Shown here: positions 24,740 through 64,000 of the stretch, piece by piece | Numbering within the stretch: the first letter of the stretch is position 1 | Layout of the letters: each line of letters begins with the position of its first letter | Assembly (NCBI GenBank): GCA_020072785.1 | Contig: JAIQGG010000002.1 | Coordinates: 806,001-870,000 of the forward strand | Direction of reading: 5' to 3' | DNA: 64,000 nt | DNA from: Terriglobia bacterium | Lineage (GTDB): Bacteria > Acidobacteriota > Terriglobia > Acidiferrales > UBA7541 | Translations under genes and position numbers: made by a program | Notes under the pieces: generated by a model | The model's database searches: none | What the model was told of the DNA's origin: nothing | The model's input: the letters and a program-made list of their open reading frames with translations, nothing else

Positions 24740-25153
24740 CTACGGCTGGCGGGTTTCCGGGGTGTAGTGGGTTTGCAGGTAGTGGATGATTTTGGGGGCG
24801 ACGGCGTCGGGGATGGTGGCGCCGAGAGCCTTTTTCATTTTGTTGACTTCGGCTTCCCAGACGGCGGCGGGCAGGGGCGGCTGCATGGTGATGTAGCGGG
24901 TGCTGTGGCACATGCCGCAGTAGCCTTCGACTTCCGCTTTGCCGTCGCCGGGGGCCAGCTCCGGCGGGTAGAGAGGATAGGAAGCGCCGCCGTAGCGGGA
25001 GTCCGGGGCGAGATCGGGCGGGGCGGGCTGCTGCAATTGGCCGAGCGCCGGGGGCTGGTAATCGCCGTTCTGGAGCTGGGCGTAGACCGCGAAGCCTGCG
25101 AGGAAGATAACGGCGCAGGAGAGAAGAATCAGGACCGGCACTCTTGTTTTCAT
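24740..25153 (-). CDS. Monohaem cytochrome c subunit (SorB-like)
   Basis: A 137-residue periplasmic cytochrome c. A signal peptide or anchor covers about residues 6-25, and the haem-binding CGMCH is at 79-83. It directly follows the molybdenum oxidoreductase gene with 14 bases between them and AGGAG before its start. This matches SorB, the electron-accepting subunit of SorAB sulfite dehydrogenases. Electrons would pass from the molybdenum centre to this haem and on to respiratory cytochrome c. Assignment as SorB depends on the neighbour. Confidence 0.8.
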   Translation of the reverse strand: MKTRVPVLILLSCAVIFLAGFAVYAQLQNGDYQPPALGQLQQPAPPDLAPDSRYGGASYPLYPPELAPGDGKAEVEGYCGMCHSTRYITMQPPLPAAVWEAEVNKMKKALGATIPDAVAPKIIHYLQTHYTPETRQP

Positions 25154-25167
25154 GGGGTGGCTCTCCT

Positions 25168-26466
25168 TTATCCCGCGCTTCCGACGATGAATTCCTGGCG
25201 CTCGATGCGATTCCAGAGATAGCCGCCGGGATTCCAGACCGGCTCATCGGGCTGGATGTTTCCTTTTTCATCCGTGGCGCGCACGGCCACGGTATAGCGG
25301 CCCGGGGATTTCGGGGTCCACAGCGCCTCCCAGGTGCGGAAGGAGTAGGGGCCGTGATCCTCGCCGAGCCGGGCGGCGAACCAGGTCTTGCCGCCGTCCT
25401 CGGAAATTTCGGTTTTGATGACGCGGCCGTTGCCGCTGAAAGCGATGCCGCGCAGGGTTACGGTCATGCCGGCGGGGATCTTCGAGCCGCCGTCCGGGGA
25501 GATGAGAAACGAGCGGACGACCATGCGATTGATGGGGATGGTTTTGACGGCGCCGGCCTGCATCTCCGCGGGAGTGGTGTTGCCGCGCGGGGTATCGGGA
25601 ACGCGGTAGGCGGTCTTGACCCAGAAATTTTCATCGGGCTGGTCGAGGACGCGGATCCAAGTGAGGCACTTCGTCCAATAGGTGGCGAAGTAGCCGGGGA
25701 CGATCAGGCGCACGGGGAAGCCGTTGAGGACGGGCAGGGGCTCGCCATTCATGAGGTAGGCGACCACGGCTTCGTCGAGCGCGGGATTGGTGAGGTCCAG
25801 GGACTTGAGGAAGCGGTTGGAGCCGAAGCCTTTGGGGCCGGAGCCGGTCTCGAGACCCTGAACCTGGACTTGCAGGGAGCCGGGTTTCACTTTGGCGGCG
25901 TCGAGGAGCTCACGCAGACGCACGCCGGTCCACAGGGCGTTGCCCATGGCGCCGTGGCCCCATTGCCCGCCGGGGACGCGGGGCTGGAAGCGGCTGCGGC
26001 TGTTGCCGGAGCACTGGTTGACGGCGGCGAGGGAGACGGGCTTGAATTTGGACATGAGGTCGGGAAGGGTGAAGGAGAGAGGCTTCTCGACGTTGCCATC
26101 GATGGTCAGCTTCCAGGTTTTGAGGTCCACGGCGTTGGGGATGCCGTCGAGATGCCAGCGCACGTAGAAGGCTTCGTTGGGGGTGAAGGCGGTGCGAAAG
26201 TAGTGGCGCGGGGTTTCGAGCTGCACGGGGCGGTCGGTGAGGAGAATGAGCGGGGCCTTTTGCGGCTCGCTGACGTAGGGGCCGACGGAATTCCAGTAGG
26301 GATTGGCGCCGGGGCCGGTGAAGGTCTGGAGGGGAGCGGCGGGGACCGGCTCCTGGGCGAGGGCGTCGTTGGCGGCGGTCCAGCCGGCGAGGGCGAGGCC
26401 GCCGGTGGTTGCGCCGAGCAGCTTCAGCAGGCCGCGGCGGGAAAGTTCATGAGCGATTCGGTTCAT
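25168..26466 (-). CDS. Molybdopterin-dependent sulfite oxidase-family oxidoreductase (SorA-like)
   Basis: A 432-residue periplasmic enzyme exported folded by the Tat pathway: the twin-arginine signal SRRGLLKLLG is at residues 9-18. The oxidoreductase molybdopterin-binding domain (about 85-290) has the molybdenum-ligating cysteine C152 in VNQCSGNSR. A Mo-co dimerisation domain follows (about 310-430). With the downstream cytochrome it is best read as a sulfite dehydrogenase oxidising sulfite to sulfate, but other substrates occur in the family. CGGAGG precedes the start. Confidence 0.87.
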   Translation of the reverse strand: MNRIAHELSRRGLLKLLGATTGGLALAGWTAANDALAQEPVPAAPLQTFTGPGANPYWNSVGPYVSEPQKAPLILLTDRPVQLETPRHYFRTAFTPNEAFYVRWHLDGIPNAVDLKTWKLTIDGNVEKPLSFTLPDLMSKFKPVSLAAVNQCSGNSRSRFQPRVPGGQWGHGAMGNALWTGVRLRELLDAAKVKPGSLQVQVQGLETGSGPKGFGSNRFLKSLDLTNPALDEAVVAYLMNGEPLPVLNGFPVRLIVPGYFATYWTKCLTWIRVLDQPDENFWVKTAYRVPDTPRGNTTPAEMQAGAVKTIPINRMVVRSFLISPDGGSKIPAGMTVTLRGIAFSGNGRVIKTEISEDGGKTWFAARLGEDHGPYSFRTWEALWTPKSPGRYTVAVRATDEKGNIQPDEPVWNPGGYLWNRIERQEFIVGSAG

Positions 26467-28655: not shown

Positions 28656-29939
28656 TTAGGAGGAGGGGGCGTGGACGCGGTGGATGTCCGCGCCGACGGC
28701 GGAGAGTTTTTCGACGATGCCTTCGTAGCCGCGGTCGATATGGTAGACGCGGTCGATGAGGGTTTCGCCCTGGGCGACGAGGCCGGCGAGGACCAGGGAG
28801 GCGCTGGCGCGGAGGTCGGAGGCGAGGACGGAGGTGCCGGTGAGGGGAGCGGGGCCGCGAACGACGGCGCGGCGGCCGTCGATGGAGATGTTGGCGCCCA
28901 TGCGCATCATTTCGCTGGCGTGGAGGAAGCGGTTCTCGAAGATGGTTTCGGTGATGATGGAGGTGCCTTCGGCCTGAGTGGCCAGGGCCATGTACTGGGC
29001 CTGCATGTCGGTGGCGAAGCCGGGGTACTCCTCGGTGGTGACGTCGGCGGCCACGAGATTTTTGGCGGGGCGGACGCGCATGGTGCCGGGAGTGTCCGTG
29101 TCAATGCGCACGCCGGTCTGGCGAAGCTTCTCGAGGACGGCGCCGAGGTGTTCGGGGGCGCAGCCGGTGAGGAGGAGATCACCGCCGGTGATGGCGCCGG
29201 CGACGAGGAAGGTGCCGGCTTCGATGCGGTCGGGGATGACGGTGTGCTCGGCGCCGTGCAGCTTATCCTTGCCGCGAATGCGCAGGGTGGAGGTGCCGTC
29301 GCCGGAAATGTCCGCGCCCATCTTGCGGAGGAGCTCGAGGAGGTCGGTGATCTCCGGCTCGCGCGCGGAATTTTCGAGGATGGTTTCGCCCTCGGCGAGA
29401 GCCGCGGCCATGAGGATATTTTCCGTGCCGGTGACGGTGATCTTTTCAAAGACGATGTGCGCGCCCTGGAGGCGGCCGCCTTTGGGTACGGCGGCTTCGA
29501 CGTAGCCGTGGCTGGTGGTGATCTCCGCGCCCATTTTTTCGAGGGCGGAGAGATGGAGATCCACGGGGCGGGCGCCGATGGCGCAGCCGCCGGGGAGGGA
29601 GACGCGGGCCTTGCCGAGGCGGGCGACGAGCGGGCCGAGGGTGAGGATGGAGGCGCGCATGGTGCGCACAAGCTCGTAGGGAGCTTCGGCGTCGTTGAGG
29701 GTGGCGGCTTCGATGAGGTAGTCGGTGGCGGGAAATTCCTGAGTGAAGACGTGCGCGGACATGTGCGCGAGGAGTTTGCCCATGGTGATGATGTCGCGGA
29801 CGCGGGGGATGTTGTGGAGCTTGACGGGTTCGGCGGTGAGCAGGGCCGCGGCCATCAACGGCAGCGCGGAGTTCTTGGCGCCGCTGATGGCCACCGTGCC
29901 GTGCAGCGGCTTGCCGCCGCGAATGAGGAATTTGTCCAT
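28656..29939 (-). CDS. murA: UDP-N-acetylglucosamine 1-carboxyvinyltransferase
   Basis: A 427-residue cytosolic enzyme transferring enolpyruvate from PEP to UDP-GlcNAc, the first committed step of peptidoglycan synthesis. K22 (GAKNSALP) and the active-site cysteine C119 in PGGCAIGARPVDLH are present, so it should be fosfomycin-sensitive. The start MDKFLIRGG is chosen from the family. The frame stays open for 16 more codons, but those fall in the repeat at 29967-29988. It lies downstream of murQ on the same strand, with a hairpin-filled 129-base gap between them. Confidence 0.95.
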   Translation of the reverse strand: MDKFLIRGGKPLHGTVAISGAKNSALPLMAAALLTAEPVKLHNIPRVRDIITMGKLLAHMSAHVFTQEFPATDYLIEAATLNDAEAPYELVRTMRASILTLGPLVARLGKARVSLPGGCAIGARPVDLHLSALEKMGAEITTSHGYVEAAVPKGGRLQGAHIVFEKITVTGTENILMAAALAEGETILENSAREPEITDLLELLRKMGADISGDGTSTLRIRGKDKLHGAEHTVIPDRIEAGTFLVAGAITGGDLLLTGCAPEHLGAVLEKLRQTGVRIDTDTPGTMRVRPAKNLVAADVTTEEYPGFATDMQAQYMALATQAEGTSIITETIFENRFLHASEMMRMGANISIDGRRAVVRGPAPLTGTSVLASDLRASASLVLAGLVAQGETLIDRVYHIDRGYEGIVEKLSAVGADIHRVHAPSS

Positions 29940-29966
29940 GGGCCGTCTTTGTACCGTCCTTGATTT

Positions 29967-29988
29967 CTGTGACCGCGAAGCGGTCAAC
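29967..29988 (+). repeat. Dispersed 22-bp palindromic repeat, copy 2
   Basis: An exact copy of the 22-bp unit (TGACCGCGAAGCGGTCA flanked by CTG and AC) in the murQ-murA gap, partly overlapping the next hairpin. Confidence 0.85.
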
Positions 29989-30068: not shown

Positions 30069-30971
30069 CTACTCGCCGAGCGCGCGGCGGAGATTGCCGC
30101 CGGCGCGCCGCAGGAGAGTGCGCGCTTCGCGAGCCGTGACGCCGCGCTTGAGCATGACCAGCGCGGCGCGGAGATCATGTCGGGCCTGACGCAGGGCGTG
30201 TGCCGCGGCAGACGGCCGGCGGCCGCTTGCTTCGCTGAGGATGCGCAAGCCGCGCCGGCGTAACTTCCGATTGGTCAGCGCCACGTCAATCATCCAATTA
30301 TCGTACACATGGCCGAGGCGCGCCATCGCGGCGGTAGAGAGCATGTTGAGGACCAATTTCTGTGCGGTGCCGGCTTTCAGGCGCGTGGAGCCGGTGAGGA
30401 CTTCGGAGCCGACGGCAGGAACGATGGGGATGCGGGCGGCGCGGGCCAGGGACGAACCGGGATCGGAAGTGATGGCCACGGTGACGGCGCGGCGCTGGCG
30501 TGCATAGGCGAGCGCGCCGAGGACGTAGGGAGTGGCGCCGCTGGCGGCGATGCCGACGACGACGTCGCGGGCGGTGAGGTTCTTGCGCCGCAGGTCGCGC
30601 GCACCGTGGGGGTAGGAATCTTCCGCGCCTTCGACGGCGCCGGTGAGGGCGCGGCGGCCTCCGGCGATCACCGCCTGCACGAGGCGGGGGGAGGTGCCGA
30701 AGGTGGGCGGGCACTCGGCGGCGTCGAGGACGGCGAGGCGGCCGCTGGTGCCGGCGCCGACGTAGAAAAGCCTGCCGCCGCTGCGGATGGCGCGGACGAT
30801 GGCGTCCACGGCGCGGGCGATCGCGGGAATTTCGCGGGCGACGGCGCGGGGGACCTTGGTGTCTTCGCGGTTCATCACGCGGAGAATTTTTTCCGAGGAG
30901 AGGCGGTCCAGGCCGCGCGAGGCGGGGTTGCGCTGTTCGGTGCGGCGGACGGCGTTCTTGCGGGGAGGCAT
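30069..30971 (-). CDS. murQ: N-acetylmuramic acid 6-phosphate etherase
   Basis: A 300-residue cytosolic enzyme cleaving the D-lactyl ether of MurNAc-6-phosphate to GlcNAc-6-phosphate. It has the SIS fold with GAGTSGR at 72-78 and catalytic glutamates E86 (DAAECPP) and E117 (EGAEDS). Length matches E. coli MurQ (298). The C-terminal 60 residues are unusually arginine-rich. The start has no ribosome binding site, but TATAAT ends exactly six bases before it, pointing to a leaderless transcript. It is the final catabolic step of the recycling locus upstream. Confidence 0.93.
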   Translation of the reverse strand: MPPRKNAVRRTEQRNPASRGLDRLSSEKILRVMNREDTKVPRAVAREIPAIARAVDAIVRAIRSGGRLFYVGAGTSGRLAVLDAAECPPTFGTSPRLVQAVIAGGRRALTGAVEGAEDSYPHGARDLRRKNLTARDVVVGIAASGATPYVLGALAYARQRRAVTVAITSDPGSSLARAARIPIVPAVGSEVLTGSTRLKAGTAQKLVLNMLSTAAMARLGHVYDNWMIDVALTNRKLRRRGLRILSEASGRRPSAAAHALRQARHDLRAALVMLKRGVTAREARTLLRRAGGNLRRALGE

Positions 30972-30977
30972 CGCCGC

Positions 30978-30983
30978 ATTATA
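30978..30983 (-). promoter_or_regulatory. -10 box for a leaderless murQ transcript
   Basis: Perfect TATAAT on the minus strand, six bases (GCGGCG) before the murQ ATG. This places transcription start at the start codon and separates murQ from the NagZ-fusion gene upstream. Confidence 0.6.
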
Positions 30984-31088
30984 CCCGCGGGATGAGCGGA
31001 TGCGCGGGCGATGCGTGGGGAAAGAGTGCGGAAAGTGACATCTTTTGCGGCCGGGGTGGCGGGAGAGGGGAGAAGAAGGAAAAAGATA

Positions 31089-31125
31089 ACGCAGAGACGC
31101 AGAGGGCGCGGAGAAGGACGCAGAG
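31089..31125 (+). repeat. Three copies of ACGCAGAG
   Basis: Two tandem copies (31089-31096, 31097-31104) and a third at 31118-31125 in the gap between the NagZ fusion and murQ. It is a member of the CAGAG-type low-complexity repeats common in bacterial intergenic DNA. Confidence 0.6.
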
Positions 31126-31213
31126 AAAATAGGGGAGGAGGGGAGTTGAGATGCGGAGACCCCGGAAAAAGCGGGCGGGGGCTTGGGAGGAGAGACGCCA
31201 AAAGGAAAGGATG

Positions 31214-34186
31214 TCAGCGGGGGGCGGAGGCGGGGGAGGCGGCCGCGGGGGCGAGGCCCAGACCCTGGAGGACGGCGTCGTGGACGGCGGGGCGGACGTC
31301 GGCGATCTTGTGGTTTTCGCGGGTGGGGTGGACGCGGTTGGTGAGCAGGATGACGAAGAGCTGGCGATCGGGGTCGATCCAGATGGAGGTGCCGGTGAAG
31401 CCGGTGTGGCCGAAGCTGTGCGGCGAGAAGAAGTGTCCGCTGGAGGAGTTTTCGGTGGGCACGGCCCAGCCGAGGGTGCGCGCGCCGTTGGCGAGCTTTT
31501 CCGGGGCGGTGAACTGTACGACGGTCGAGCGGCGGAGCAGGCGGTGGTGGGCGTAGATGCCGCCGTTGAGGAGCATCTGGCAGAAGACGGCGAGATCCGG
31601 GGCGGTGCTGAAGAGGCCGGCGTGTCCGGCGACGCCGCCCATGACGAAGGCATTTTCGTCGTGGACCTGGCCCTGGACGAGACGCTTGCGCAGGATCTTG
31701 TCGAATTCGGTGGGGGCGATGAGCGGCCAGAGTTTTTTCGGGGGATTGTATTGCGTGTCGTGCATGCCGAGGGGCACGAAAAGCTGCTGCTGGGCCAGTG
31801 CGTCGAGGGGCTGGCCGGTGAGGCGCTCGATGATTTCTCCGAGGAGGATGATGCCCAGGTCGGAATAGACCTCTTTGGCGCCGGGCTCGGATTCGAGCGG
31901 CTCGGCGAAGATCGCGGCGAGGGTTTCGCGCTTGCTTTTGGAGGTGCGCCAGTATTCCTTGAAGGGCGGCAGGCCGGAAGTGTGCGTGAGGAGATGGCGG
32001 GCGGTGACGCGGTGGCGCCATTCGGGCTGCGGGCCGGTCTTCCATTCGGGGAGATAGCGCTCGATGGGCAGGTCCAGATCGAGAGGAACGGGGAAGTCCC
32101 CCTCGACCAGGCGCGCGGTGAGCGTGGTGGTGCTGACGACTTTGCTGAGCGAGGCGATGTCGTAAATGGTGGCGGGGGTGACGGCGGGAGATTTGGCGGC
32201 GTAGCTGAGGTTGCCGAAGGGGTGCACGGCGAGCTTGCCGCGGTAGCCGACGGCCAAGACCGCGCCGGGAAAGGCTTTGTCGGCGACGGCACGCTCGATC
32301 ACGCCGTAGGCCGGGTGGAGCAGGGCTTCGCCGCGGGTGTCCATGGGCTCGAGGGTCATGGGATTGGCGGGGAGAGCGATGCCGTCGCCGGCCTTGAGAT
32401 TGGCGGCGGGAATGCTGACGGGCAGGCGCCCGGCGATGGCGATCTGGCCGAAGAGGGCGCGCGCGGCGGAGATCTGCACGACATCACTGATGCCCATTGC
32501 CGCCAGCCAGGTTTCCGCCTGGGGAAAGCGCTCGATGAGATAGGGGCTGCCGAAGCCGATGCAGACGACGGGCTTGCCGCTGGAGAAGACCTGCCGGACG
32601 AGCGCGGCCTGCTCCGCGGGAAGTTCGACGCTGCCTTTGCGGTCGCTGACGCGGACGAAGAGGGCGACGATGGCTACGTCATAGCTGCCAGGAGGCGGGA
32701 GCTTGACGGTTTGGGCCAGCACGAATTGGGTGTCGGTGCGCACGGTGGTGAGGGAATCGACGCGCCAGCGCAGCTCGCGCTCGAGGTCTTCGGCGGGGTA
32801 AGGTTCGGGATCGCCGGAGACGGCGAGAAGGAGTGCGCGAACGGGCTTGGTGGGGTCGAGAGGGAGAAGGTGCGCGGTGTCGCGGAGCAGGGTGATGCCG
32901 CGGTCGCCGATGTCTTGCGCGGCCTGCTCGAAGCCGGTTTTGGCAAAGTGGTTGTTGAGTGCGTTGACGTCCACCAGGCGATTTTTCTGGAGGCCGAGGC
33001 GGGCCTTGGCGCGGAGAATGCGGCGCACGGATTCGTCGAGGCGCTGGCGCGGGATGCGGCCGGAGGCCACGGCGTCTTTGAGGGCTTCGAAGGCGGCGTT
33101 GGGCACCGGGGGCATGAGCAGGCAATCAGCGCCGGCGAGGACGGCGCGCACGGCGGCTTCGCCGGGGGCGTAGCGCACGGTGATGCCACCCATGTTCATG
33201 GCATCGGTGACGATGAGGCCGTGGAAGCCGAGTCGCTGGCGCAGCAGGCCGGTGAGGATGTTGGAAGAGAGCGTAGCGGGCGTGTCGGGATCGGGCTCCA
33301 GAGCGGGGACGGAGAGGTGGCCGGTCATGATGGAGCTGACGCCGGCGGCGATGGCGGCGCGGAAGGGCGCGAGCTCGAGCCGGTCGAGGCGCTCTTTATC
33401 GGCGTGGACCACAGGGAGATCGAGGTGCGAGTCGGTGGAGGTGTCGCCGTGGCCGGGGAAGTGCTTGGCGGTGGCCAGGGCGCCGTTATCCTCGACGCCG
33501 CGGATGAACTGCGTGACGAATTGGGAGACGCGCGCGGGATCTTCGCCGAAGGAGCGGGTGTTGATGATGGGATTGGCGGGATTGCTGTTGACGTCGGCAT
33601 CGGGGGCGTAAATCCACTGGATACCGGTAGCGCGGGCTTCGAGAGCGGTGATCTTGCCCATAGTGTAGGCGTCCTGCGGGCGGCCGGCGGCGGCGACGGC
33701 CATGGCCATGGGGAAGGAGGTGCCTTCGTCGAGGCGCATGGCGGTGCCGCGCTCGAAGTCGGCGCCGATGAGCAGGGGAAGCTTGGCCATGGACTGGAAT
33801 TGGTTGGCGAGGACGGCGCTGGGGTAGGCCTGGCTTTTGACGATGCCCAGGGGCGAGATCAGGGTGGCGTTGATGAGGCCGCCGACGTGCAGCTTCTGGA
33901 TGTCGTGCTGGAGTTCCGCGTAGGGCGCGCGGTCGGTAGCCAGCAGGCTGCCGTGATAGGTGGTGAAGAGCAGCTGGCCGACCTTTTCCTCGACACTCAT
34001 CTTGCGGAGTGTGGATTCGACCCACTTCTCGGCGGCGGGAGAGAGGCGGCGCTGGTCCGGCTTGGCTTTTTTCGCGGCTGGAGCCGGGGGTTTCGCCTGC
34101 GGTGTGGAGCGGCTGTGGCTGCGCGAAGTGTTGGCCATAAGAAGAAGCAGTGGAAGAAGAAAGAGTCCGGCGATGCGTCCTTTCAT
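31214..34186 (-). CDS. NagZ-type GH3 beta-N-acetylhexosaminidase fused to a class C beta-lactamase-like serine hydrolase
   Basis: A 990-residue exported protein. After a signal peptide (about 1-20) comes a family 3 glycoside hydrolase with the NagZ signature KHFPGHGD (241-248) and nucleophile D328 (VTDAMNM). A GH3 C-terminal domain (about 400-590) follows, then a serine hydrolase domain with S679-x-x-K682, Y774 (YSD) and HTG. NagZ removes GlcNAc from peptidoglycan fragments. In Bacillus subtilis the neighbouring AmiE, a MurNAc-L-alanine amidase, also has this beta-lactamase fold, so the fusion may do both steps. It is divergent from the NamZ gene. Confidence 0.9.
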   Translation of the reverse strand: MKGRIAGLFLLPLLLLMANTSRSHSRSTPQAKPPAPAAKKAKPDQRRLSPAAEKWVESTLRKMSVEEKVGQLLFTTYHGSLLATDRAPYAELQHDIQKLHVGGLINATLISPLGIVKSQAYPSAVLANQFQSMAKLPLLIGADFERGTAMRLDEGTSFPMAMAVAAAGRPQDAYTMGKITALEARATGIQWIYAPDADVNSNPANPIINTRSFGEDPARVSQFVTQFIRGVEDNGALATAKHFPGHGDTSTDSHLDLPVVHADKERLDRLELAPFRAAIAAGVSSIMTGHLSVPALEPDPDTPATLSSNILTGLLRQRLGFHGLIVTDAMNMGGITVRYAPGEAAVRAVLAGADCLLMPPVPNAAFEALKDAVASGRIPRQRLDESVRRILRAKARLGLQKNRLVDVNALNNHFAKTGFEQAAQDIGDRGITLLRDTAHLLPLDPTKPVRALLLAVSGDPEPYPAEDLERELRWRVDSLTTVRTDTQFVLAQTVKLPPPGSYDVAIVALFVRVSDRKGSVELPAEQAALVRQVFSSGKPVVCIGFGSPYLIERFPQAETWLAAMGISDVVQISAARALFGQIAIAGRLPVSIPAANLKAGDGIALPANPMTLEPMDTRGEALLHPAYGVIERAVADKAFPGAVLAVGYRGKLAVHPFGNLSYAAKSPAVTPATIYDIASLSKVVSTTTLTARLVEGDFPVPLDLDLPIERYLPEWKTGPQPEWRHRVTARHLLTHTSGLPPFKEYWRTSKSKRETLAAIFAEPLESEPGAKEVYSDLGIILLGEIIERLTGQPLDALAQQQLFVPLGMHDTQYNPPKKLWPLIAPTEFDKILRKRLVQGQVHDENAFVMGGVAGHAGLFSTAPDLAVFCQMLLNGGIYAHHRLLRRSTVVQFTAPEKLANGARTLGWAVPTENSSSGHFFSPHSFGHTGFTGTSIWIDPDRQLFVILLTNRVHPTRENHKIADVRPAVHDAVLQGLGLAPAAASPASAPR

Positions 34187-34335
34187 CGAGTGCGTATCTC
34201 CCGGTTGACGCCCCCCGGTTGACGGCAAGACCCTGCGTCTGTATATAGCACAGGGCCAGTGCGCTCACAACGCAGCGCGGGCGGCGGCGTTCCAGCATAT
34301 CATTGTGGGCGGTTCGGGGAAGAGACAGGAGAAAA

Positions 34336-35604
34336 ATGGGGCTGAGGAGAGAAGGTTGGTTTCGTGGGGCGCGGGTGCTGCTGGTGATTGCGGCGTGCCT
34401 GCTGGGGAATTGGCCCGCGGCCGCGGCGAAGCGCGGGGCAGCAAAACACGCCGCAGGCAAGCGCGGGCGCGGAGTGCGCACGCAAACGGGGCTGGACGTG
34501 CTAGAGGCGGAGAAGTTTGCGGCGCTGCGCGGGAAGCGCGTGGGGCTGATCACCAACCACACGGGGGTGGACGCGCAAGGCCGCTCGGCGATCGAGCTGC
34601 TGGCGCACGCGCCCGGCGTGCACCTGGTGGCGCTGTTCAGCCCGGAGCACGGCATTGCGGGACGCGCCGATGACAAAGTGGCGGGTTCGAAAGATCCCGC
34701 GACCGGACTGCCGGTCTACAGCCTCTATGGCGAGACGCGGCGCCCGACCGAGGAGATGCTGCAGGGCATTGACGCGCTGGTCTTCGACATCCAGGACGCG
34801 GGCGTGCGGTTCTATACCTACACGACGACGATGGCCTATTGCATGGAGGAAGCCGCGAAGCAGGGGATCGCGTTTTACGTGCTGGACCGGCCCAATCCGC
34901 TGGGCGGGGAGATTGTGGAGGGGCCGGTTCTGGACCCGGATAAGACCAGCTTCACGGGCTATTTTCCGCTGCCGGTGCGTTACGGGCTGACGATCGGCGA
35001 ACTGGCGCAGCTCTTCAACGCGGAGAACAAGATCGGGTGCGAGCTGCACGTGATTGCCATGCGCAACTGGCGGCGCGGCGCGTACTACGACAATACCGGC
35101 GTACGCTGGATTCCGCCTTCGCCGGCCCTGCGCACGCTGAAGGGTGCGGTGCTCTATCCCGGGCTGGAGATTCTGCAGAACGCGAATCTGTCGGTGGGGC
35201 GGGGCACGGAGATGCCGTTCGAGAAGTTCGGCGCGCCGTGGCTGGACGGCGAGCGCGTGGCCGCGGAATTGAACGCGCGGCGGTTGCCGGGGCTGAAGTT
35301 CAAGGCGGCGCCGTTCCTGCCGGGGGCGGGGCCGTACAGGGGGCAACGCTGCGGCGGCGTGGCCGTGCGGGTGACCGACCGCAACGTGGCGCGGCCGCTG
35401 CGCATGGGCATGGAGATCGCGACGGTGCTGAAGAAGCTATACCCGCAGCAGTTCGATGCGGGGAAGATGCTGCTGCTGTTGGGCAACACCGCGACGGTAG
35501 AGATGCTGGAGCAGGGCGCGGCGCCGGAAGAAGTGGTGCGCAGCTGGGCGGCGGATCTCGCCGCGTATGAAACGCTGCGGCGGAAGTATTTCCTCTACAA
35601 ATAG
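34336..35604 (+). CDS. namZ: NamZ-type exo-beta-N-acetylmuramidase (DUF1343)
   Basis: A 422-residue exported protein with a signal peptide (about 12-31, ending AAAA). The DUF1343 domain shows LITNHTGVD (71-79) and FSPEHG (101-106), carrying the conserved glutamate. Characterised members cleave non-reducing terminal MurNAc from peptidoglycan, complementing NagZ, which is encoded divergently 150 bases away. AGGAGA precedes the start. Assignment to the family is firm; the exo-muramidase activity is inferred from characterised relatives and the locus context. Confidence 0.88.
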   Translation: MGLRREGWFRGARVLLVIAACLLGNWPAAAAKRGAAKHAAGKRGRGVRTQTGLDVLEAEKFAALRGKRVGLITNHTGVDAQGRSAIELLAHAPGVHLVALFSPEHGIAGRADDKVAGSKDPATGLPVYSLYGETRRPTEEMLQGIDALVFDIQDAGVRFYTYTTTMAYCMEEAAKQGIAFYVLDRPNPLGGEIVEGPVLDPDKTSFTGYFPLPVRYGLTIGELAQLFNAENKIGCELHVIAMRNWRRGAYYDNTGVRWIPPSPALRTLKGAVLYPGLEILQNANLSVGRGTEMPFEKFGAPWLDGERVAAELNARRLPGLKFKAAPFLPGAGPYRGQRCGGVAVRVTDRNVARPLRMGMEIATVLKKLYPQQFDAGKMLLLLGNTATVEMLEQGAAPEEVVRSWAADLAAYETLRRKYFLYK

Positions 35605-35667
35605 AGAATGCAGAGCGCGAAGAATCGCAACATCCAGTATTTCAAACACAGATGGTGGAAATCTTTT

Positions 35668-35687
35668 GGGTTCGACTTCGTCGACCC
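35668..35687. repeat. Imperfect hairpin with TTC loop
   Basis: GGGT(T)CGAC-TTC-GTCGACCC: eight base pairs with one bulged T and a TTC loop. It is followed by TTCAGGATGACAAG. It lies between the convergent NamZ and APC transporter genes and has no T-run. Confidence 0.5.
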
Positions 35688-35748
35688 TTCAGGATGACAA
35701 GTGCGCAGGAGTTTGCGCGGGGTGTGAAGTGCGCTGCGGGAGAGCGGC

Positions 35749-37152
35749 TCAGGCGGGAGTTTGGTAGCGGGTCCAGCGGCGGTAGAAGGGCAGGCCGGCG
35801 AGGATTACGAGCAGGCCGATGGAAGAGCGGCCGGGGCGGTCGAGCCAGAGATTGACGGTGAGGGCCAGAGCGCCGGCGACGAAGAGGCCGGGGACCCAGG
35901 GATAGCCCCAGCAGCGGTAGGGGCGGGGCAGGTCCGGCTCGGTGCGGCGCAGGCGGAAGAGAGCCACGACGGCAAGGCCGTAGAAAATCCATCCCGCAAA
36001 AATGAAGAGGTTGGTCAGCTCCTCGAAGGTGCCGGTGAGGGCCATGACGCTGGCCAGGACGCCCTGAAAGACGAGGGCGCGGCCGGGAGTGCGGAACTTG
36101 GGGTGGATGCCGCCGGCGATGCGGAAGAAGATGCCGTCGCGGGCCATGGCGTAAGGGACGCGGGCGCCGCTGAGGATGGAAGAGTTCATGGAGCCGAGAG
36201 CGGAGATGGCCATCGCCAAGGTGATCCAGATGGCGGCGTTGCTGCCGGCGACGCGGGCGACGACGTCGGAGGCCACGTGCGCCGAGGCGGCCACTTCGCC
36301 GAAGGGGAGCACGCGCAGGCAAGCAGCGTTGAAGAGCAGATAGACCAGGGCGACGAAGGCCACGCCGCCGACCAGGGCCCGGGGAAAATTGCGCTGCGGA
36401 TCCTGCACCTCCGAGCCCACCAGGTTCAGATCTTCCCAGCCGTCATAGGCCCACAGCGCGGCGGCCAGGGCCGCGAGGAAGGCCCCGAAGACGCCGCGAT
36501 CGAGCGCGGCGGGCCAGATGGGACCGGGCGCGGCGTGTGCGGCGTGGGATGGCGCGAAAAGCGCCACGCCGATAACGATGAGCACGGAAAAAACCTTGAT
36601 CAGCGTGAGCCCCACCTGGACACGGCCGCCGAGGCGCACGCCGAGATAGTTGATGCCGGTCATCAGGGCGAGCCACAGGACGGCCAGGGGTTGGGCCCAG
36701 GTGAAGACGAAATCGTAGGGCGGAATCCAGCGCTGCAGACCCGGGAGGGCGATGTGCACGGTGAAGAGCGGCGCGGCCACGGCGGGCAGGAGAAAGCCGA
36801 GAAAGCGCATCAGGCCGGCGGCGATGGAGGCGGCGGAGGCGGTGCGGCCGACGATGGAGTGCATCCAGCCGAAGAGGAAGCCCCAGACGGGACTGAAGCC
36901 GCGGCGCAGATAGGCGTATTCGCCGCCGGCCTCCGGGATGGCCGCGCCGAGTTCGGCGAAGGCGAGGGCGCCGAAGAGCGAAAGCACCGCGCCGACGATC
37001 CACGCGGCAAAGACCACGGAGACGAAACGGCCCTCGCGGGCCATCTCCGCGGGCTTGAGGAAGATGCCGGTGCCGATCATGGTGCCCACGACGATGGCCG
37101 CCGAGGACCAGGTACCCAGGCCGCGGACAAGCTCGAGGCGTTTCTCGGTCAT
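35749..37152 (-). CDS. APC-superfamily amino acid permease
   Basis: A 467-residue inner-membrane transporter with about 12 helices. The first helix carries the APC motif VVGTMIGTGIFLKP. Members exchange or import amino acids and polyamines. Its ATG overlaps the TGA of the upstream SSS symporter by four bases (ATGA), so the two are co-translated. In a peptidoglycan-salvage setting an alanine or other wall amino acid is plausible, but the substrate cannot be read. Confidence 0.87.
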   Translation of the reverse strand: MTEKRLELVRGLGTWSSAAIVVGTMIGTGIFLKPAEMAREGRFVSVVFAAWIVGAVLSLFGALAFAELGAAIPEAGGEYAYLRRGFSPVWGFLFGWMHSIVGRTASAASIAAGLMRFLGFLLPAVAAPLFTVHIALPGLQRWIPPYDFVFTWAQPLAVLWLALMTGINYLGVRLGGRVQVGLTLIKVFSVLIVIGVALFAPSHAAHAAPGPIWPAALDRGVFGAFLAALAAALWAYDGWEDLNLVGSEVQDPQRNFPRALVGGVAFVALVYLLFNAACLRVLPFGEVAASAHVASDVVARVAGSNAAIWITLAMAISALGSMNSSILSGARVPYAMARDGIFFRIAGGIHPKFRTPGRALVFQGVLASVMALTGTFEELTNLFIFAGWIFYGLAVVALFRLRRTEPDLPRPYRCWGYPWVPGLFVAGALALTVNLWLDRPGRSSIGLLVILAGLPFYRRWTRYQTPA

Positions 37153-38606
37153 GCGGGTCCCATCTCCGGCGGGTGATCTTCCCGCGGGGCTGCCAGGCGG
37201 CTGACGGCGGCGCCGGCGGTGTAGGTAATGGCCGCGCCCAGTAAGACGTACCACGTGAAGGCGACCGTGGTAAAGGCATGGATGGCGAGTACGGCGGCGA
37301 GGCCGGCGAACATGCCAACCAGCGCGCCGTTGGGAGTGGCGCGGCGGTCGAGCGTGCCGAGGAGAAACAGGCCGAGCAGGCTGCCGAAAGAGATGGAAGC
37401 CACGGTGAGGCCGGCTTTGAGGAGCGGACCCCAGTTGACCAGGCCGAAGCCCAAGAGCACGCCGCCCCAGACCAGGGTCATGCGTCGCGAGAAGCGCAGG
37501 AAGCGCACGGGGTCGCCGGAGCGGCCGCGCAGGGCGGCGAAATCGAAGACGCTGGAAGCGGCGAGGGAGTTGAGGGAGCCGCTGGCGTTGGACATGGCCA
37601 CGGCGAGGATGGAGGCGAGGAGCAGGCCGGCGAGGCCGGGGGGCATTTCGCGGACGAGGAAGAGCGGGAGGACGCGGTCGGTGCGCTCGCCGGGAGCGAG
37701 AAGCGGGGTGTGCTGGGCGAAAACGAAGAGGAGCACGCCGATGAGCAAGAATACGGCGAACTGCGCGAGGATGATGACGCCGCTGGCGAGGAGGGCGCGG
37801 CGGCTGTCGCGCTGATCGCGGGCGGCGAGCAGGCGCTGCACGATGGTCTGGTCGGTGCCGTGGCTGGCCATGGTGAGAAAAGCCCCGCCGAGCACGCCGG
37901 ACCAGATGGTGAATTCGGTGGAGAGGTTCCAGGAAAAATCGAGGAAGCGCAGCTTGTGGCCGGAGGCCGCGGCGGTCTGCGCGACTTCCGTCCAACCGCC
38001 GGGAATGCGGTGAAGAAGGACGAAGAAGGTGACGGCGGAGCCGGTGAGATAGAGGAGGAGCTGGGCGACGTCGGTCCAGATGACGGCTTTCATGCCGCCT
38101 TCGAAGGTGTAGAGGATGGTGAGGGTGATGACGAGGACTACGGCGAGACGCTCAGAGGTGCCAAGGACGACGCTGACAACCAGGGCGATGGCCGAAACGC
38201 GCACGCCTTCGGCGACGGCGCGGGTGACCAGAAACGTAGTGGCAGCCACGGAGCGCATGCGTTCGCCGAAACGCTTTTCGATGAGCTCGTAGGCGGTGTA
38301 GAGCTCTCCGCGGAAATAGCCGGGAAGCAACAGGAGGACGATCAAGACGCGGCCGAGCAGATAGCCGAAGACGAGCTGAAGGAAGGCCAGGTTGCCGGTG
38401 TAGGAGAGCGCCGGGGTGCCGATGATGGTCAGCGTGGAGGTTTCCGTGGCCACGATGGAGAAGGCCAGGGCCCACCAGGGAGCGGTGCGCCCGCCGAGAA
38501 AATAGTCGTGGACGGTGTGCTGGCCGCGGCGGAAATAGACGCCGAGGGAGGTCACGCCCAGAAGATAGGCGACGACGATGGCCAGATCGATGGGATGGAT
38601 GCGCAT
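37149..38606 (-). CDS. Sodium:solute symporter (SSS family)
   Basis: A 485-residue inner-membrane symporter with about 13 helices. The N-terminal pattern DYFLGGRTAPWWALAFSIVA and the segment GGMKAVIWTDVAQ are typical of the family. The start at MRIHPID is set by the promoter at 38656-38684, which rules out the longer frame. It sits between NamZ and a BadF-type sugar kinase, so MurNAc, GlcNAc or a muropeptide product is the likely cargo. This is inference; other members carry sialic acid, glucose or proline. Confidence 0.85.
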   Translation of the reverse strand: MRIHPIDLAIVVAYLLGVTSLGVYFRRGQHTVHDYFLGGRTAPWWALAFSIVATETSTLTIIGTPALSYTGNLAFLQLVFGYLLGRVLIVLLLLPGYFRGELYTAYELIEKRFGERMRSVAATTFLVTRAVAEGVRVSAIALVVSVVLGTSERLAVVLVITLTILYTFEGGMKAVIWTDVAQLLLYLTGSAVTFFVLLHRIPGGWTEVAQTAAASGHKLRFLDFSWNLSTEFTIWSGVLGGAFLTMASHGTDQTIVQRLLAARDQRDSRRALLASGVIILAQFAVFLLIGVLLFVFAQHTPLLAPGERTDRVLPLFLVREMPPGLAGLLLASILAVAMSNASGSLNSLAASSVFDFAALRGRSGDPVRFLRFSRRMTLVWGGVLLGFGLVNWGPLLKAGLTVASISFGSLLGLFLLGTLDRRATPNGALVGMFAGLAAVLAIHAFTTVAFTWYVLLGAAITYTAGAAVSRLAAPREDHPPEMGPA

Positions 38607-38655
38607 GCGGTGCTTGCGCCGCGCGGCCCGGCAGAGGCCGCGGGGAAGCGGGTTG

Positions 38656-38684
38656 AGGATAGAGGGGGAAGTGCGGGGCGTCAA
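38656..38684 (-). promoter_or_regulatory. Sigma-70-type promoter of the symporter operon
   Basis: On the minus strand, TTGACG (38684-38679) and TATCCT (38661-38656) are separated by exactly 17 bases. The predicted start is about 40 bases before the symporter ATG. Confidence 0.7.
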
Positions 38685-38758
38685 GGGAAGGGAGCGGGGC
38701 TGCAGACTTTTTGGCGACGCGGGGGCGGAGAAGAGCTACGTTTCGCGCCGTTCTGGCA

Positions 38759-38764
38759 TATGCT
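38759..38764 (+). promoter_or_regulatory. -10-like box for a leaderless kinase transcript
   Basis: TATGCT ends six bases before the ATG at 38771 and no ribosome binding site is present. The same geometry is seen at 6867, 6922, 30978 and, with seven bases, 42283. Confidence 0.35.
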
Positions 38765-38770
38765 TTTGCT

Positions 38771-39709
38771 ATGCGCTGCGTTTTGGGGCTGGACGGCGGG
38801 GGGACGAAGACCGAGTGCGTGCTGCTGGACGAGCAGGGGCGCGTGCAGGCGCGCAGCCGCTCGGGACCGTCGAATCCGCTGCGCGTGGGGGTGGAAGCGG
38901 CGGTGGCGGCTGTGGAAGAGGCGGCGCAGGCGGCCCTGGTTGCAGCGCAGGCGGCGCGTGCAGATGTGGCCGCGCTGGTTGCGGGGCTAGCAGGCGCGGG
39001 ACGCGCAGAGATGGCGGAGCGGATGCGCGCGGAACTGCAGCGTGGCTTCCCGGGTTGCGCGGTGAGGGTGTGCACGGACCTGGAGCTGGCGCTGGTGGCG
39101 GTGGGCAAGAGTCCGGCGGTGGTGCTGGTGGCCGGAACGGGTTCCGCGGCGATCGGGCGCGACGCGGCCGGAAACGTAATGCGCGCGGGCGGCCTGGGAC
39201 CGAGCACGGGCGATGAGGGCAGCGCGTACGACATTGGGCGCAAGGCGGTAGCCGCGGCGCGGGAAGAGCGGGAGCGCAGCGGCGTGGAATCCGCGCTGGG
39301 GCGGAGGATTCTGCAGGGGCTGGGAGTTTCGTCGTGGGAGGAAGTGCAGGCGCGGGCGCGGGAAGCGGCGGATGAGATCTACCCGCGGGTGTTTCCGTAT
39401 CTCGCGGAAGAAGCTGCGGCCGGTGACGCGACGGCGCAGGGTCTTCTGCGCGAGGCCGCGGCGGAGCTGGCCAGGCTAGCGGGCGGGCTGGCCGAGCGCA
39501 TGGGGCTCGGCGGGATGCCGTTTGCGCTGGCCAAGGCCGGCGGGCTCATCGGGCGCAGCGCGTATTTCGATGCGCAGCTCGACGAACGGCTGCGCCAGGC
39601 GGCGCCGCAAGCGAAAATCTGCCTGCCGGCGGTGCCGCCGGCGGAAGCGGCGGCGCGGCTGGCGCTGAAATTGGCGGGCGGAGCGGGGCGCGGCGCGACA
39701 AAGCAGTGA
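38771..39709 (+). CDS. BadF/BcrA-type amino-sugar kinase (MurK/NAGK-like)
   Basis: A 312-residue ASKHA-fold kinase. The phosphate-1 motif LDGGGTKTE is at 7-15, and AGTGS (phosphate 2) and GDEGSAYDIG lie in the middle. Relatives include human GlcNAc kinase and Clostridium MurK, which phosphorylates MurNAc and GlcNAc. Here it could convert symporter-imported MurNAc to MurNAc-6-phosphate for MurQ. It is divergent from the symporter with about 165 bases between them. The gene 9 bases downstream is probably co-transcribed. Confidence 0.85.
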   Translation: MRCVLGLDGGGTKTECVLLDEQGRVQARSRSGPSNPLRVGVEAAVAAVEEAAQAALVAAQAARADVAALVAGLAGAGRAEMAERMRAELQRGFPGCAVRVCTDLELALVAVGKSPAVVLVAGTGSAAIGRDAAGNVMRAGGLGPSTGDEGSAYDIGRKAVAAAREERERSGVESALGRRILQGLGVSSWEEVQARAREAADEIYPRVFPYLAEEAAAGDATAQGLLREAAAELARLAGGLAERMGLGGMPFALAKAGGLIGRSAYFDAQLDERLRQAAPQAKICLPAVPPAEAAARLALKLAGGAGRGATKQ

Positions 39710-39718
39710 CGGAGCAGG

Positions 39719-40510
39719 ATGGAAGACCAGAGCACAATTCGCGAGCGGGCGCTGACGGCGAGCGGGGAAGAGCTCGCGGCGCTGCTGCAGCACTCCTCGC
39801 CGGACGTGCTGCGGGCGCTGCTGGACAACCGGGCGCTGAAGGAAGCGCAGCTGTGCCGGCTGCTGGAGCGCAAGGATCTTCCGGGAGAAATTCTCGAGGA
39901 AGTAGCGCGGCGCAAGGCGGTGCTGAAGAGCTACCGGGTGAAGCGGGCGATTGCGTTTCATCCGCACGCGCCGCGGCTGGTGAGCCTGCGGCTGCTGCGC
40001 GACCTGTATCTGATGGATTTGGTGCAGCTGGCGCTGCTGCCCGGAGTTTCCGCGGAGCTGAAGCGCCAGGCGGAGGAGCAATTGCTGGCCCGGATGCCGC
40101 AGATTGCGCTGGGGCAGAAGGTGACGCTGGCGCGGCGCGGTCCGGGACGCGTGGCGGGGGCGCTGCTGGCGGAGGGGCATGCGCACGTGCTGGCGGTAGT
40201 GCTGGACAATCCGAATTTGAACGAAGGGCACGTGCTGAAGGTGCTGGCGCGGGAGAAGCTGCCGGAGGCGGTGCTGCAGGCGGTGGCGCACCACCGCAAG
40301 TGGTCGGTCTCCTACAACGTACGGATCGCGCTGGTGCGGAATCCGGCTTCGCCGCTGGGGGTGGTGCTCAGTTTCTTGCCCCACCTGACGCTGAGCGACC
40401 TGCGGGAACTGGCCGCGCCGGGGCTGCTGGCGGAAAGTTTGCGCAAGTATCTGCAGGCGGAAGTGGCGCGACGGATGCATGCGGGAGCCGGGGAGAAGGC
40501 GGAGAAGTAG
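39719..40510 (+). CDS. Conserved-looking alpha-helical repeat protein, function unknown
   Basis: A 263-residue soluble, almost entirely alpha-helical protein rich in Leu, Ala and Arg. Regularly spaced helices contain repeated RNP/DNP-type turns (VVLDNPNLNE, ALVRNPASPLG), resembling HEAT or leucine-rich-variant repeats, so a protein-binding scaffold is plausible. No catalytic motif or signal peptide is visible. GGAG precedes the start. It lies nine bases after the sugar kinase and 54 bases before the PilZ gene. I do not recognise a named family. Confidence 0.7.
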   Translation: MEDQSTIRERALTASGEELAALLQHSSPDVLRALLDNRALKEAQLCRLLERKDLPGEILEEVARRKAVLKSYRVKRAIAFHPHAPRLVSLRLLRDLYLMDLVQLALLPGVSAELKRQAEEQLLARMPQIALGQKVTLARRGPGRVAGALLAEGHAHVLAVVLDNPNLNEGHVLKVLAREKLPEAVLQAVAHHRKWSVSYNVRIALVRNPASPLGVVLSFLPHLTLSDLRELAAPGLLAESLRKYLQAEVARRMHAGAGEKAEK

Positions 40511-61852: not shown

Positions 61853-64000
61853 CTAGTCCGCCGCCGCTTGCCGTGCGTCCTGGGCGATCTGCTGACGCAA
61901 CTGCATCGCGTACTGCGCCAGTTGGGCTGCGATTTCCTCCTCCACCTTGCGCCTTTTGGCGATTTGCTCGCGGTAACGCCGCAGAAAGTAATCGATGGTC
62001 TCCACGCGGAGCCGGATCGATCCGGAGGGCTTGTTCTCGTCGAGATCCTTGAAGCAGAAGTAGGGTGTTCCGGATTGTTCGACGATCCCTTCGATCACGC
62101 CGTAAATGGGTGCGTCATGGCCGCATTTGAAACTCGATATTTCCAGGGCGACCAGGTTGGGGTGACGAGCGGTAAATTTGGCCGCCCAGATCTTGTGGTT
62201 TGCGCTGCAGGAAAAGGAGTTCTTCCAGCAGTCCGAAATATCTAGCGCGTGACTGATCACCCCTGCCCGGACCTCGTCCCCAAAGAGACGTTCCAGAATG
62301 TCTTCGTCGAGCGGCAATGTATTCTGGGAGAAGATCGGATAGCCCAACTTCTGAAACTCTTCCAGGATTCCGTGATTCAGGCCGGGATCGTGGTGGTACG
62401 GCCGGCCCAGCATGACGATGCCGATGCGGTCTTCGCGTTCGAGCTGGTCCAGCACGACGCGTGCCCGCGCGCGGATGCTGAGTTCGTAATCGCGCAGCGC
62501 CTGGTAGCCCGCTTCGACGGCCCGGCCATTTTCTTCCTCGGACAAGCCCAGGATGGGCTGCCATGCCCGGTACATCTGAAAGGCAAACAGCTTGCGGTCC
62601 GTAAAGTTCAGGATGGGATTCAGATATTTTACGTGGAGCTCAGCGAAGAGGTCGTTCTCCTTGGTGAACGCGGCCTTCACCGTCTCGGCCGTGGCCATTG
62701 CGGTGGGGCAGGCGTTCGTTCCGGTCAGCTTCACCAGCGAAGAATGCAGAACGTCATACATCGGCAGAAAGATCGCCTGGAGGGGCTTTTTCTGGTGTTT
62801 GACCTGGAGAAGGTCATACACGTGCGGGATAGCGATCTTGGCCGGGAAGCAGGGATCAATTGCCCCGCGGCTGGAGCCGCTGCGATAGAGTTCGGGAGTG
62901 GTGTAATCCGAATAGACGATGTTCTCCGGCTGCAGGCCCAGGCTTTCCAGGTAGGCGTTGAACAGCGGGGCGTAAACGTAGGCATTCAAGACGCGCGGGA
63001 TCCCGACGCGCAGGTCCTCGCGGTTCTTCATCAGCGCGGCGCGCTCCTGATCGCGCTTGGACCAGGCGCATTGCGGAATCGGGTCAGCCACCAGCTTGGA
63101 GTTCCGCGAGCGGAAGACTTCCCGGGCAGCGATGTCCACAAAGTTGGGATTGGCGTCCTTGATCTGATCGATGCCGGCCTTGATGGCCTTCATCTCGCTG
63201 AGGTCCTCGACCGTGCCTTTCTCACAGGTGGCGATAATCAGGCGCTGCTCGCCCGCCAGCAGCGGGACTTTGGTCACCTTGGGGACGGAGGAAGAGCCGA
63301 GCTGCTCCAGCCGGATGTCGATGAACGTGCGCAGGCAGGTGTTTTTACAGAAATTGCAGCGGGTCTCTTCGCTGCGTGTAGTCCGGTATTCGATGCTGCG
63401 CACTGCATCGAGGCCGATAAAGGTTGTGCGCATCCCATTGCGCCACAGGCGCAGCGCCTCGAGGCCCGCGCCGATTGCGCCGGACTCGCCGCAATGCTCG
63501 TGAACGATGATCTCCGGCTCCTGGCCAGCGCCGCGGAAGCTGCCGCGGATAAAGTCCACCTCCGCCTTTACCACCGCTAGATTGTTTTGGGTCCCCCCTT
63601 GCAGGACGAAGCGCGAACCGAGCGCCGCCAGGTTTGGAATGCGGGCGACGTAGAGGAAGACGTTTTTCGGCAGCACCGCCGCCAGACCAGCGAGAATTTC
63701 TTCCGCGCGCCAGCCTTGGCGCTGGTAGTTCACGATGTCCGACTGCAGGAACACGGCGCAGCCATAACCGAAAACGGGCATGGCCTGAGCGGTGAAAGCC
63801 AGATCCGCGAACTCTTCCACCTTGAGTCCGAACTCTTCCGCCGTGGATTGCAGGAAGTAGCCGTTGCCCGCCGAGCATTGGGTGTTGAGCTTGAAGTCCT
63901 TTACCCGGCCGTCTTTGAGAATGATGAGTTTGATGTCCTGCCCGCCCACGTCCACGATCACATGGGGGTCGTCGTAGAACCGGAGCGCGGATTCGGTGTG
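61853..64000 (-). CDS. BadF/BcrA-type ATPase with DUF2229, 5' part beyond the window
   Basis: The 715 C-terminal residues of a large protein whose start lies past the right edge. The visible part begins inside an ASKHA ATPase domain (VDVGGQDIKLI...CSAGNGYFLQ) and continues with a DUF2229/2-hydroxyglutaryl-CoA dehydratase-like region. A cysteine cluster, CNFCKNTC, may bind an iron-sulfur cluster. Full-length relatives carry two ATPase domains and resemble activators of (R)-2-hydroxyacyl-CoA dehydratases, but their own role is unclear. No dehydratase gene is in view. The stop TAG is at 61853. Confidence 0.85.
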   Translation of the reverse strand, partial: HTESALRFYDDPHVIVDVGGQDIKLIILKDGRVKDFKLNTQCSAGNGYFLQSTAEEFGLKVEEFADLAFTAQAMPVFGYGCAVFLQSDIVNYQRQGWRAEEILAGLAAVLPKNVFLYVARIPNLAALGSRFVLQGGTQNNLAVVKAEVDFIRGSFRGAGQEPEIIVHEHCGESGAIGAGLEALRLWRNGMRTTFIGLDAVRSIEYRTTRSEETRCNFCKNTCLRTFIDIRLEQLGSSSVPKVTKVPLLAGEQRLIIATCEKGTVEDLSEMKAIKAGIDQIKDANPNFVDIAAREVFRSRNSKLVADPIPQCAWSKRDQERAALMKNREDLRVGIPRVLNAYVYAPLFNAYLESLGLQPENIVYSDYTTPELYRSGSSRGAIDPCFPAKIAIPHVYDLLQVKHQKKPLQAIFLPMYDVLHSSLVKLTGTNACPTAMATAETVKAAFTKENDLFAELHVKYLNPILNFTDRKLFAFQMYRAWQPILGLSEEENGRAVEAGYQALRDYELSIRARARVVLDQLEREDRIGIVMLGRPYHHDPGLNHGILEEFQKLGYPIFSQNTLPLDEDILERLFGDEVRAGVISHALDISDCWKNSFSCSANHKIWAAKFTARHPNLVALEISSFKCGHDAPIYGVIEGIVEQSGTPYFCFKDLDENKPSGSIRLRVETIDYFLRRYREQIAKRRKVEEEIAAQLAQYAMQLRQQIAQDARQAAAD

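Follow-up and report, generated by a model that had tools for sequence, protein, structure and literature searches.

A conserved acidobacterial locus predicted to salvage peptidoglycan amino sugars without a phosphotransferase system

Introduction

A group of genes in a Terriglobia bacterium raises the question of how N-acetylmuramic acid (MurNAc) may be recovered from peptidoglycan without a phosphotransferase system (PTS), and which of the encoded proteins would bring it into the cell. The genes lie in the window, by which we mean the whole analysed stretch of 64,000 nucleotides (positions 806001-870000 of its contig), in a genome of 3.73 Mb assembled into 11 contigs and 98.9% complete. A preliminary description had proposed that they form a complete MurNAc salvage locus, in which wall fragments are trimmed in the periplasm, MurNAc enters through a symporter of the SSS family, and a kinase supplies MurNAc-6-phosphate to the etherase MurQ, and that such a route would be a distinct version of the pathway.

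Two characterized systems are the natural points of reference. In Bacillus subtilis, the genes are arranged as murQ-murR-murP-amiE-nagZ-namZ (ybbC), and MurP is a PTS transporter (PMC5061867). In Tannerella forsythia, ybbC (the DUF1343/NamZ gene), murT, murK and murQ are carried by one transcript, and murTKQ encode a MurNAc transporter of the sodium-symporter superfamily, a MurNAc kinase and MurQ (PMC5790795, PMC5388701). Among the matches listed in a literature search for acidobacterial MurNAc recycling, there were only general papers on wall hydrolases and recycling.

Results

Organization of the locus

The six salvage genes and the adjoining murA were all recovered, by Pfam and NCBIfam matches and the list of open reading frames, in the positions given by the preliminary description. 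At the left end murA (28656-29987, minus strand, start probably at 29939; TIGR01072, 571 bits), encoding UDP-GlcNAc enolpyruvyl transferase, stands next to murQ (30069-30971, minus strand), which encodes a MurNAc-6-phosphate etherase of 300 amino acids (TIGR00274, 371.5 bits against a cut-off of 302). The start of murQ is at about 30971, the 658-amino-acid version being an open frame only, and the protein shares 63-72% identity with MurQ of the nearest Acidobacteriota, the closest named relatives including Candidatus Acidiferrales. MurA belongs to the de novo pathway and is a conserved neighbour of murQ outside salvage. Such direct adjacency of murA and murQ, that is, of a gene for synthesis and a gene for breakdown, was seen in many acidobacterial loci (twelve noted).

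The genes murA, murQ and nagZ-amiE are directed leftward, with namZ divergent from them across 149 bases (34187-34335); similarly, the SSS and APC genes are directed leftward, and the kinase gene diverges from them across 164 bases (38607-38770). With genes on both strands and two divergent arrangements, the locus is therefore not one operon, and this possibility was ruled out. A search for sigma-70-like promoters gave one site, on the SSS strand of the region 38607-38770, which does not exceed the chance level, and none of the locus genes that were identified encodes a MurR regulator. The 10-mer TTGACGCCCC occurs in both divergent intergenic regions, on opposite strands, and is the only candidate for a shared operator; the sequence CCGGTTGACG is repeated within the region 34187-34335. 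Further to the left, the open reading frame translations include a sulfite-oxidase-like frame (25168-26466) adjoining a small protein (24740-25153) that contains a CxxCH haem motif, the two together spanning 24740-26466.

Hydrolases predicted to be exported

The nagZ-amiE gene (31214-34186, minus strand) encodes a protein of 990 amino acids with three Pfam matches: Glyco_hydro_3 (GH3, residues 65-392), Glyco_hydro_3_C (431-596) and a Beta-lactamase, or AmiE-like, domain (630-961). B. subtilis NagZ/YbbD structures are among the best PDB sequence matches, and the NagZ half keeps the Asp-x-His dyad (PMC6403190) in a motif (KHFPGHGDTSTDSH) that aligns with that of Bacillus NagZ. The AmiE part carries SxxK, YSD and HTG motifs, and it is 36% identical to an AmiE-like protein whose gene stands between murQ and nagZ in B. 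sonorensis. There, nagZ and namZ come after the AmiE-like gene, and their products are 31% and 44% identical to the NagZ part and to NamZ, respectively. In the B. subtilis cluster murQ-murR-murP-amiE-nagZ-ybbC, as it is given in PMC5061867, amiE has the corresponding position and its product is named a MurNAc-L-alanine amidase. Because of this identity and synteny with B. sonorensis, the fusion partner of NagZ is an AmiE-like domain, predicted to act as an amidase. A resistance beta-lactamase was considered as the partner and rejected, as its scores against class C models are far below their cut-offs and AmiE matches by sequence and synteny.

The product of namZ (34336-35604, plus strand) belongs to the exo-beta-N-acetylmuramidase family (DUF1343) and has both NamZ_N and NamZ_C domains (PF07075, 288 bits; PF20732, 151 bits), each scoring above its cut-off. 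Hydrophobic, signal-like N-terminal segments are present in the NagZ-AmiE fusion and in NamZ, and absent from MurQ and the kinase. Therefore, two exported proteins would share the trimming, one taking off both GlcNAc and the peptide and the other setting MurNAc free, in accordance with the trimming outside the cytoplasm that had been suggested for NagZ and NamZ.

Kinase

The sugar kinase gene (38771-39709, plus strand) encodes a protein of the BadF type (BcrAD_BadFG; PF01869, 116 bits), which we regard as a candidate MurNAc/GlcNAc kinase. In a profile search it matched Clostridium acetobutylicum MurK (8zo3) with an E-value of 4.6e-91, human NAGK with 4.5e-44 and Tannerella MurK with 1.1e-13. 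Its AlphaFold2 model (pLDDT 93.7) likewise placed 8zo3 first (Z 34.8 over 303 residues, with 27% identity over the alignment), followed by hexokinase and NAGK (Z 30-32) and Tannerella MurK (Z 22-24). Asp103, the catalytic residue, does not vary across the alignment and is preceded by Thr, as in Tannerella MurK. Where the latter has Ser-Pro-Leu, a position that gives space for the lactyl group, the window kinase has Gly-Gly-Leu and no bulky Glu or His; this would be permissive for the lactyl group, yet it would suit a GlcNAc kinase as well, human NAGK being an example. A Trp position of Clostridium MurK is Leu in the window kinase. As Clostridium MurK, the closest relative, is described as a MurNAc/GlcNAc kinase (in the molecule name of 8zo3 and in the title of Reith 2011, cited in PMC5061867), use of both sugars by the window kinase is likely, and it would fit the release of GlcNAc by NagZ. 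The proposal that a BadF kinase would feed MurQ is supported, with GlcNAc as a likely additional substrate.

Directly 3' of the kinase gene, on the same strand, lies a frame of 263 amino acids (39719-40510) that matched neither Pfam nor NCBIfam. Two BadF-type ATPase domain matches were found also in a frame of 1168 amino acids at the right edge of the window (63455-64000) and beyond it (869455-871287 of the contig), which has the appearance of the CoA-dehydratase activator kind.

Symporter and its APC partner

The SSS-family Na+/solute symporter (37149-38606, minus strand; TIGR00813, 208 bits against a cut-off of 184), the candidate MurNAc importer, represents a subfamily that we call type A. 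Its gene overlaps by 4 bases that of a permease of the APC superfamily (35749-37152, minus strand; PF13520, 202 bits), which reached no NCBIfam cut-off. The best PDB sequence match of the symporter is the sialic acid symporter SiaT of Proteus mirabilis (5nv9, E-value 2.3e-59), in which Ser60 and Thr63 bind the sialic acid carboxylate (PMC5931594). Equivalents of these two residues are kept in 55/55 type A sequences compared. The window protein retains also the equivalents of Asp182, Arg260, Ser342 and Ser345; in contrast to SiaT, Ser343 is replaced by Asn and Ser346 by Gly (the sites compared being Na2, Ser342/Ser343, and Na3, Asp182/Ser345/Ser346), and Gln82 is not conserved. SiaT Arg135 corresponds to Ala in type A, where arginines occur in TM3 three residues before and four after it, Arg129 being invariant (55/55) and Arg136 present in 53/55. 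These two arginines plausibly share a helix face, although they could instead pair with nearby acidic residues. The invariant TM3 arginine and the retained residues of the carboxylate site make an acidic sugar such as MurNAc the favoured solute, and a function of the window symporter as a MurNAc importer is plausible.

Conservation

The conservation of the locus was counted in 43 genomes of the order, including its own. The kinase gene is present in 39 of them, the SSS gene in 38, namZ in 38 and murQ in 33, and 31 have all four. Starts of the kinase and SSS genes are at most 3 kb apart in 30 of the 38 genomes with both, and the distance between namZ and murQ is no more than 20 kb in 27/31, while by our estimate a random gene pair in a 4 Mb genome would fall within 20 kb in about 1% of cases. 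The grouping is far beyond chance. Three loci show the full order kinase-SSS-APC-namZ-nagZ/amiE-murQ-murA, and the APC gene adjoins the SSS gene in most of the order, as well as in some genomes of sister orders. Symporter relatives 39-48% identical to the window protein occur in Pyrinomonas and another Acidobacterium, in two Calditrichota, and in one genome each from a Planctomycete and the Bacteroidetes, where their genes stand beside nagZ, amiE, namZ or murQ. The preliminary description had proposed a search for co-occurrence in related genomes, with lack of conservation as evidence against its reading; the clustering extends well beyond this genome.

Remainder of the pathway

No match to PTS EIIC was found in this genome, and only 1/61 genomes searched had one over the cut-off, which supports uptake of the free sugar and agrees with the suggestion of salvage without a PTS. 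The term complete, by which the locus had been described, was an overstatement. The search for NagA in this genome was negative (the best TIGR00221 match had an E-value of 4.6e-5); NagA is over the cut-off in 46/61 genomes searched, and most of the genus has it. Since the assembly is 98.9% complete, a gap in it is a possible cause. The genes found thus do not account for the use of GlcNAc-6-phosphate, nor for a complete pathway. AmpG, the importer of anhydromuropeptides, was not found in this genome and is present in some members of the genus; AnmK is encoded here, at 1291290-1292438 of the same contig.

Discussion

We consider it probable that the locus serves PTS-free salvage of peptidoglycan amino sugars, by trimming outside the cytoplasm, import of free MurNAc by the type A symporter, and the action of a MurK-like kinase and MurQ; in this scheme we infer all of the substrates, the direction of transport and the own or foreign origin of the wall material. 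Outside the cytoplasm, the NagZ part of the fusion would remove GlcNAc and the AmiE part the stem peptide, and NamZ would take MurNAc off the non-reducing end. MurNAc, presumably in its free form, would then pass into the cell through the type A symporter. The kinase resembling Clostridium MurK would convert it to MurNAc-6-phosphate, and probably phosphorylate GlcNAc too, and cleavage of the lactyl ether by MurQ would yield GlcNAc-6-phosphate and D-lactate. A role for the APC permease in importing an amino acid or peptide product is a guess.

A rival to this scheme concerns the import step. Another SSS subfamily, which we call type B (about 590 amino acids, 27.5% identical to type A), adjoins the kinase, murQ, nagA, namZ or amiE in sister orders (six loci), where type A is found elsewhere, in some genomes beside APC. 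It is therefore conceivable that MurNAc enters through a type B protein encoded elsewhere, and that the window symporter imports another product, either GlcNAc or, together with APC, an amino acid or peptide product. The separate type A and APC unit in some sister-order genomes (three loci, one of them near a gamma-glutamyltranspeptidase gene) would agree with this, as would the clusters in one family of the same order, which hold both types (two loci). We nevertheless regard such an arrangement as unlikely. Outside Acidobacteriota type A itself lies beside murQ, nagZ, amiE or namZ; SiaT Ser60 is missing from type B in 33/38 sequences, and no arginine is found at the TM3 positions compared, as expected of a carrier of a neutral solute; and the type B gene of this genome (1232327-1234108 of the same contig) is placed outside the salvage cluster, beside a GH2 glycosidase and an M49 peptidase and no salvage genes. 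The likeliest interpretation is that two symporters serve two solutes, with type A carrying MurNAc. The claim that MurNAc enters through the window symporter thus remains plausible as far as the residues for an acidic sugar are concerned, but it was put too strongly, given the position of type B beside murQ in sister orders. A broader form of this division is rather unlikely and offered tentatively: in Acidobacteriota and some other phyla, the two subfamilies would differ in their pockets, type A (Glu55-Thr56-Ser57, TM3 Arg129) taking MurNAc as an acidic sugar and type B (Thr-Phe-Ala, TM3 Asn) a neutral one, for example GlcNAc, one MurNAc/GlcNAc kinase would serve both, and the APC permease paired with type A would import a stem-peptide product, so that muropeptides would be taken in piecewise without AmpG or a PTS. 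As separate observations, APC stays beside type A in the three sister-order loci even without the rest of the cluster, and compact runs of kinase, SSS, murQ and nagA occur in two of the type B loci.

Two other readings leave the import of free MurNAc aside or alter only its purpose. The kinase could phosphorylate solely GlcNAc, released by NagZ, and MurQ could receive its MurNAc-6-phosphate from AnmK acting on anhydro-MurNAc. The only NCBIfam match of the kinase is indeed to a GlcNAc kinase model, NagK_SO3507, and anmK is present, but that match reaches 101.6 bits where the cut-off is 370, C. acetobutylicum MurK is the nearest kinase of solved structure, a search of this genome gave no AmpG, and kinases of the BadF family adjoin murQ in several phyla; this makes the bypass very unlikely. 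A stronger case can be made for a locus that scavenges foreign peptidoglycan as food instead of recycling the cell's own wall, which differs from our main reading in the source of the wall only. It would be in line with the export-like N-termini of NagZ-AmiE and NamZ, and with record titles of related loci, which refer to soil-type and groundwater samples (palsa, fen, groundwater isolates). However, B. subtilis uses the same enzymes in turnover recycling (PMC5061867), own and foreign sources are inseparable by sequence, and both may hold; we thus treat exclusive scavenging as possible and lean against it.

The PTS-free salvage that we favour closely resembles the ybbC-murT-murK-murQ system of Tannerella (PMC5790795, PMC5388701, PMC10465942), with which it shares a NamZ-family gene, a BadF/NagK-type kinase clustered with murQ, and a MurQ scoring over the cut-off. 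MurT is of the sodium-symporter superfamily, and the likeness of the window protein to it is one of SSS family membership only. In Tannerella free MurNAc is imported without a PTS and phosphorylated in the cytoplasm, and the same is predicted here by analogy. The symporter-plus-kinase route is thus already known from that organism and is not a new version of the pathway, contrary to what had been proposed. Unlike in Tannerella, the kinase is similar to Clostridium MurK, NagZ-AmiE and the APC permease are added, murA is kept, and there are two divergent arrangements; AmpG, as noted, was not found in this genome. With B. subtilis the locus has in common MurQ and exported NagZ, AmiE and NamZ, whereas SSS and the kinase stand in place of the MurP PTS, NagZ and AmiE form one fused protein, and MurR is lacking among the genes identified. 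To what was known, the present case adds the conserved locus in an acidobacterial clade, the NagZ-AmiE fusion and APC within it, the Clostridium-type kinase, and the two alternating SSS subfamilies.

If the proposed route is correct, import and phosphorylation of MurNAc without a PTS would be standard in free-living Acidobacteria that still make MurNAc, as the presence of murA indicates, in contrast to the oral pathogen unable to make MurNAc from which the route is known. The SSS subfamily with the TM3 arginine signature offers a testable genomic marker for MurNAc transporters, and the alternation of two symporter subfamilies beside murQ makes transporter specificity directly testable. For the bacteria themselves, the locus would constitute a plausible route of feeding on bacterial necromass.
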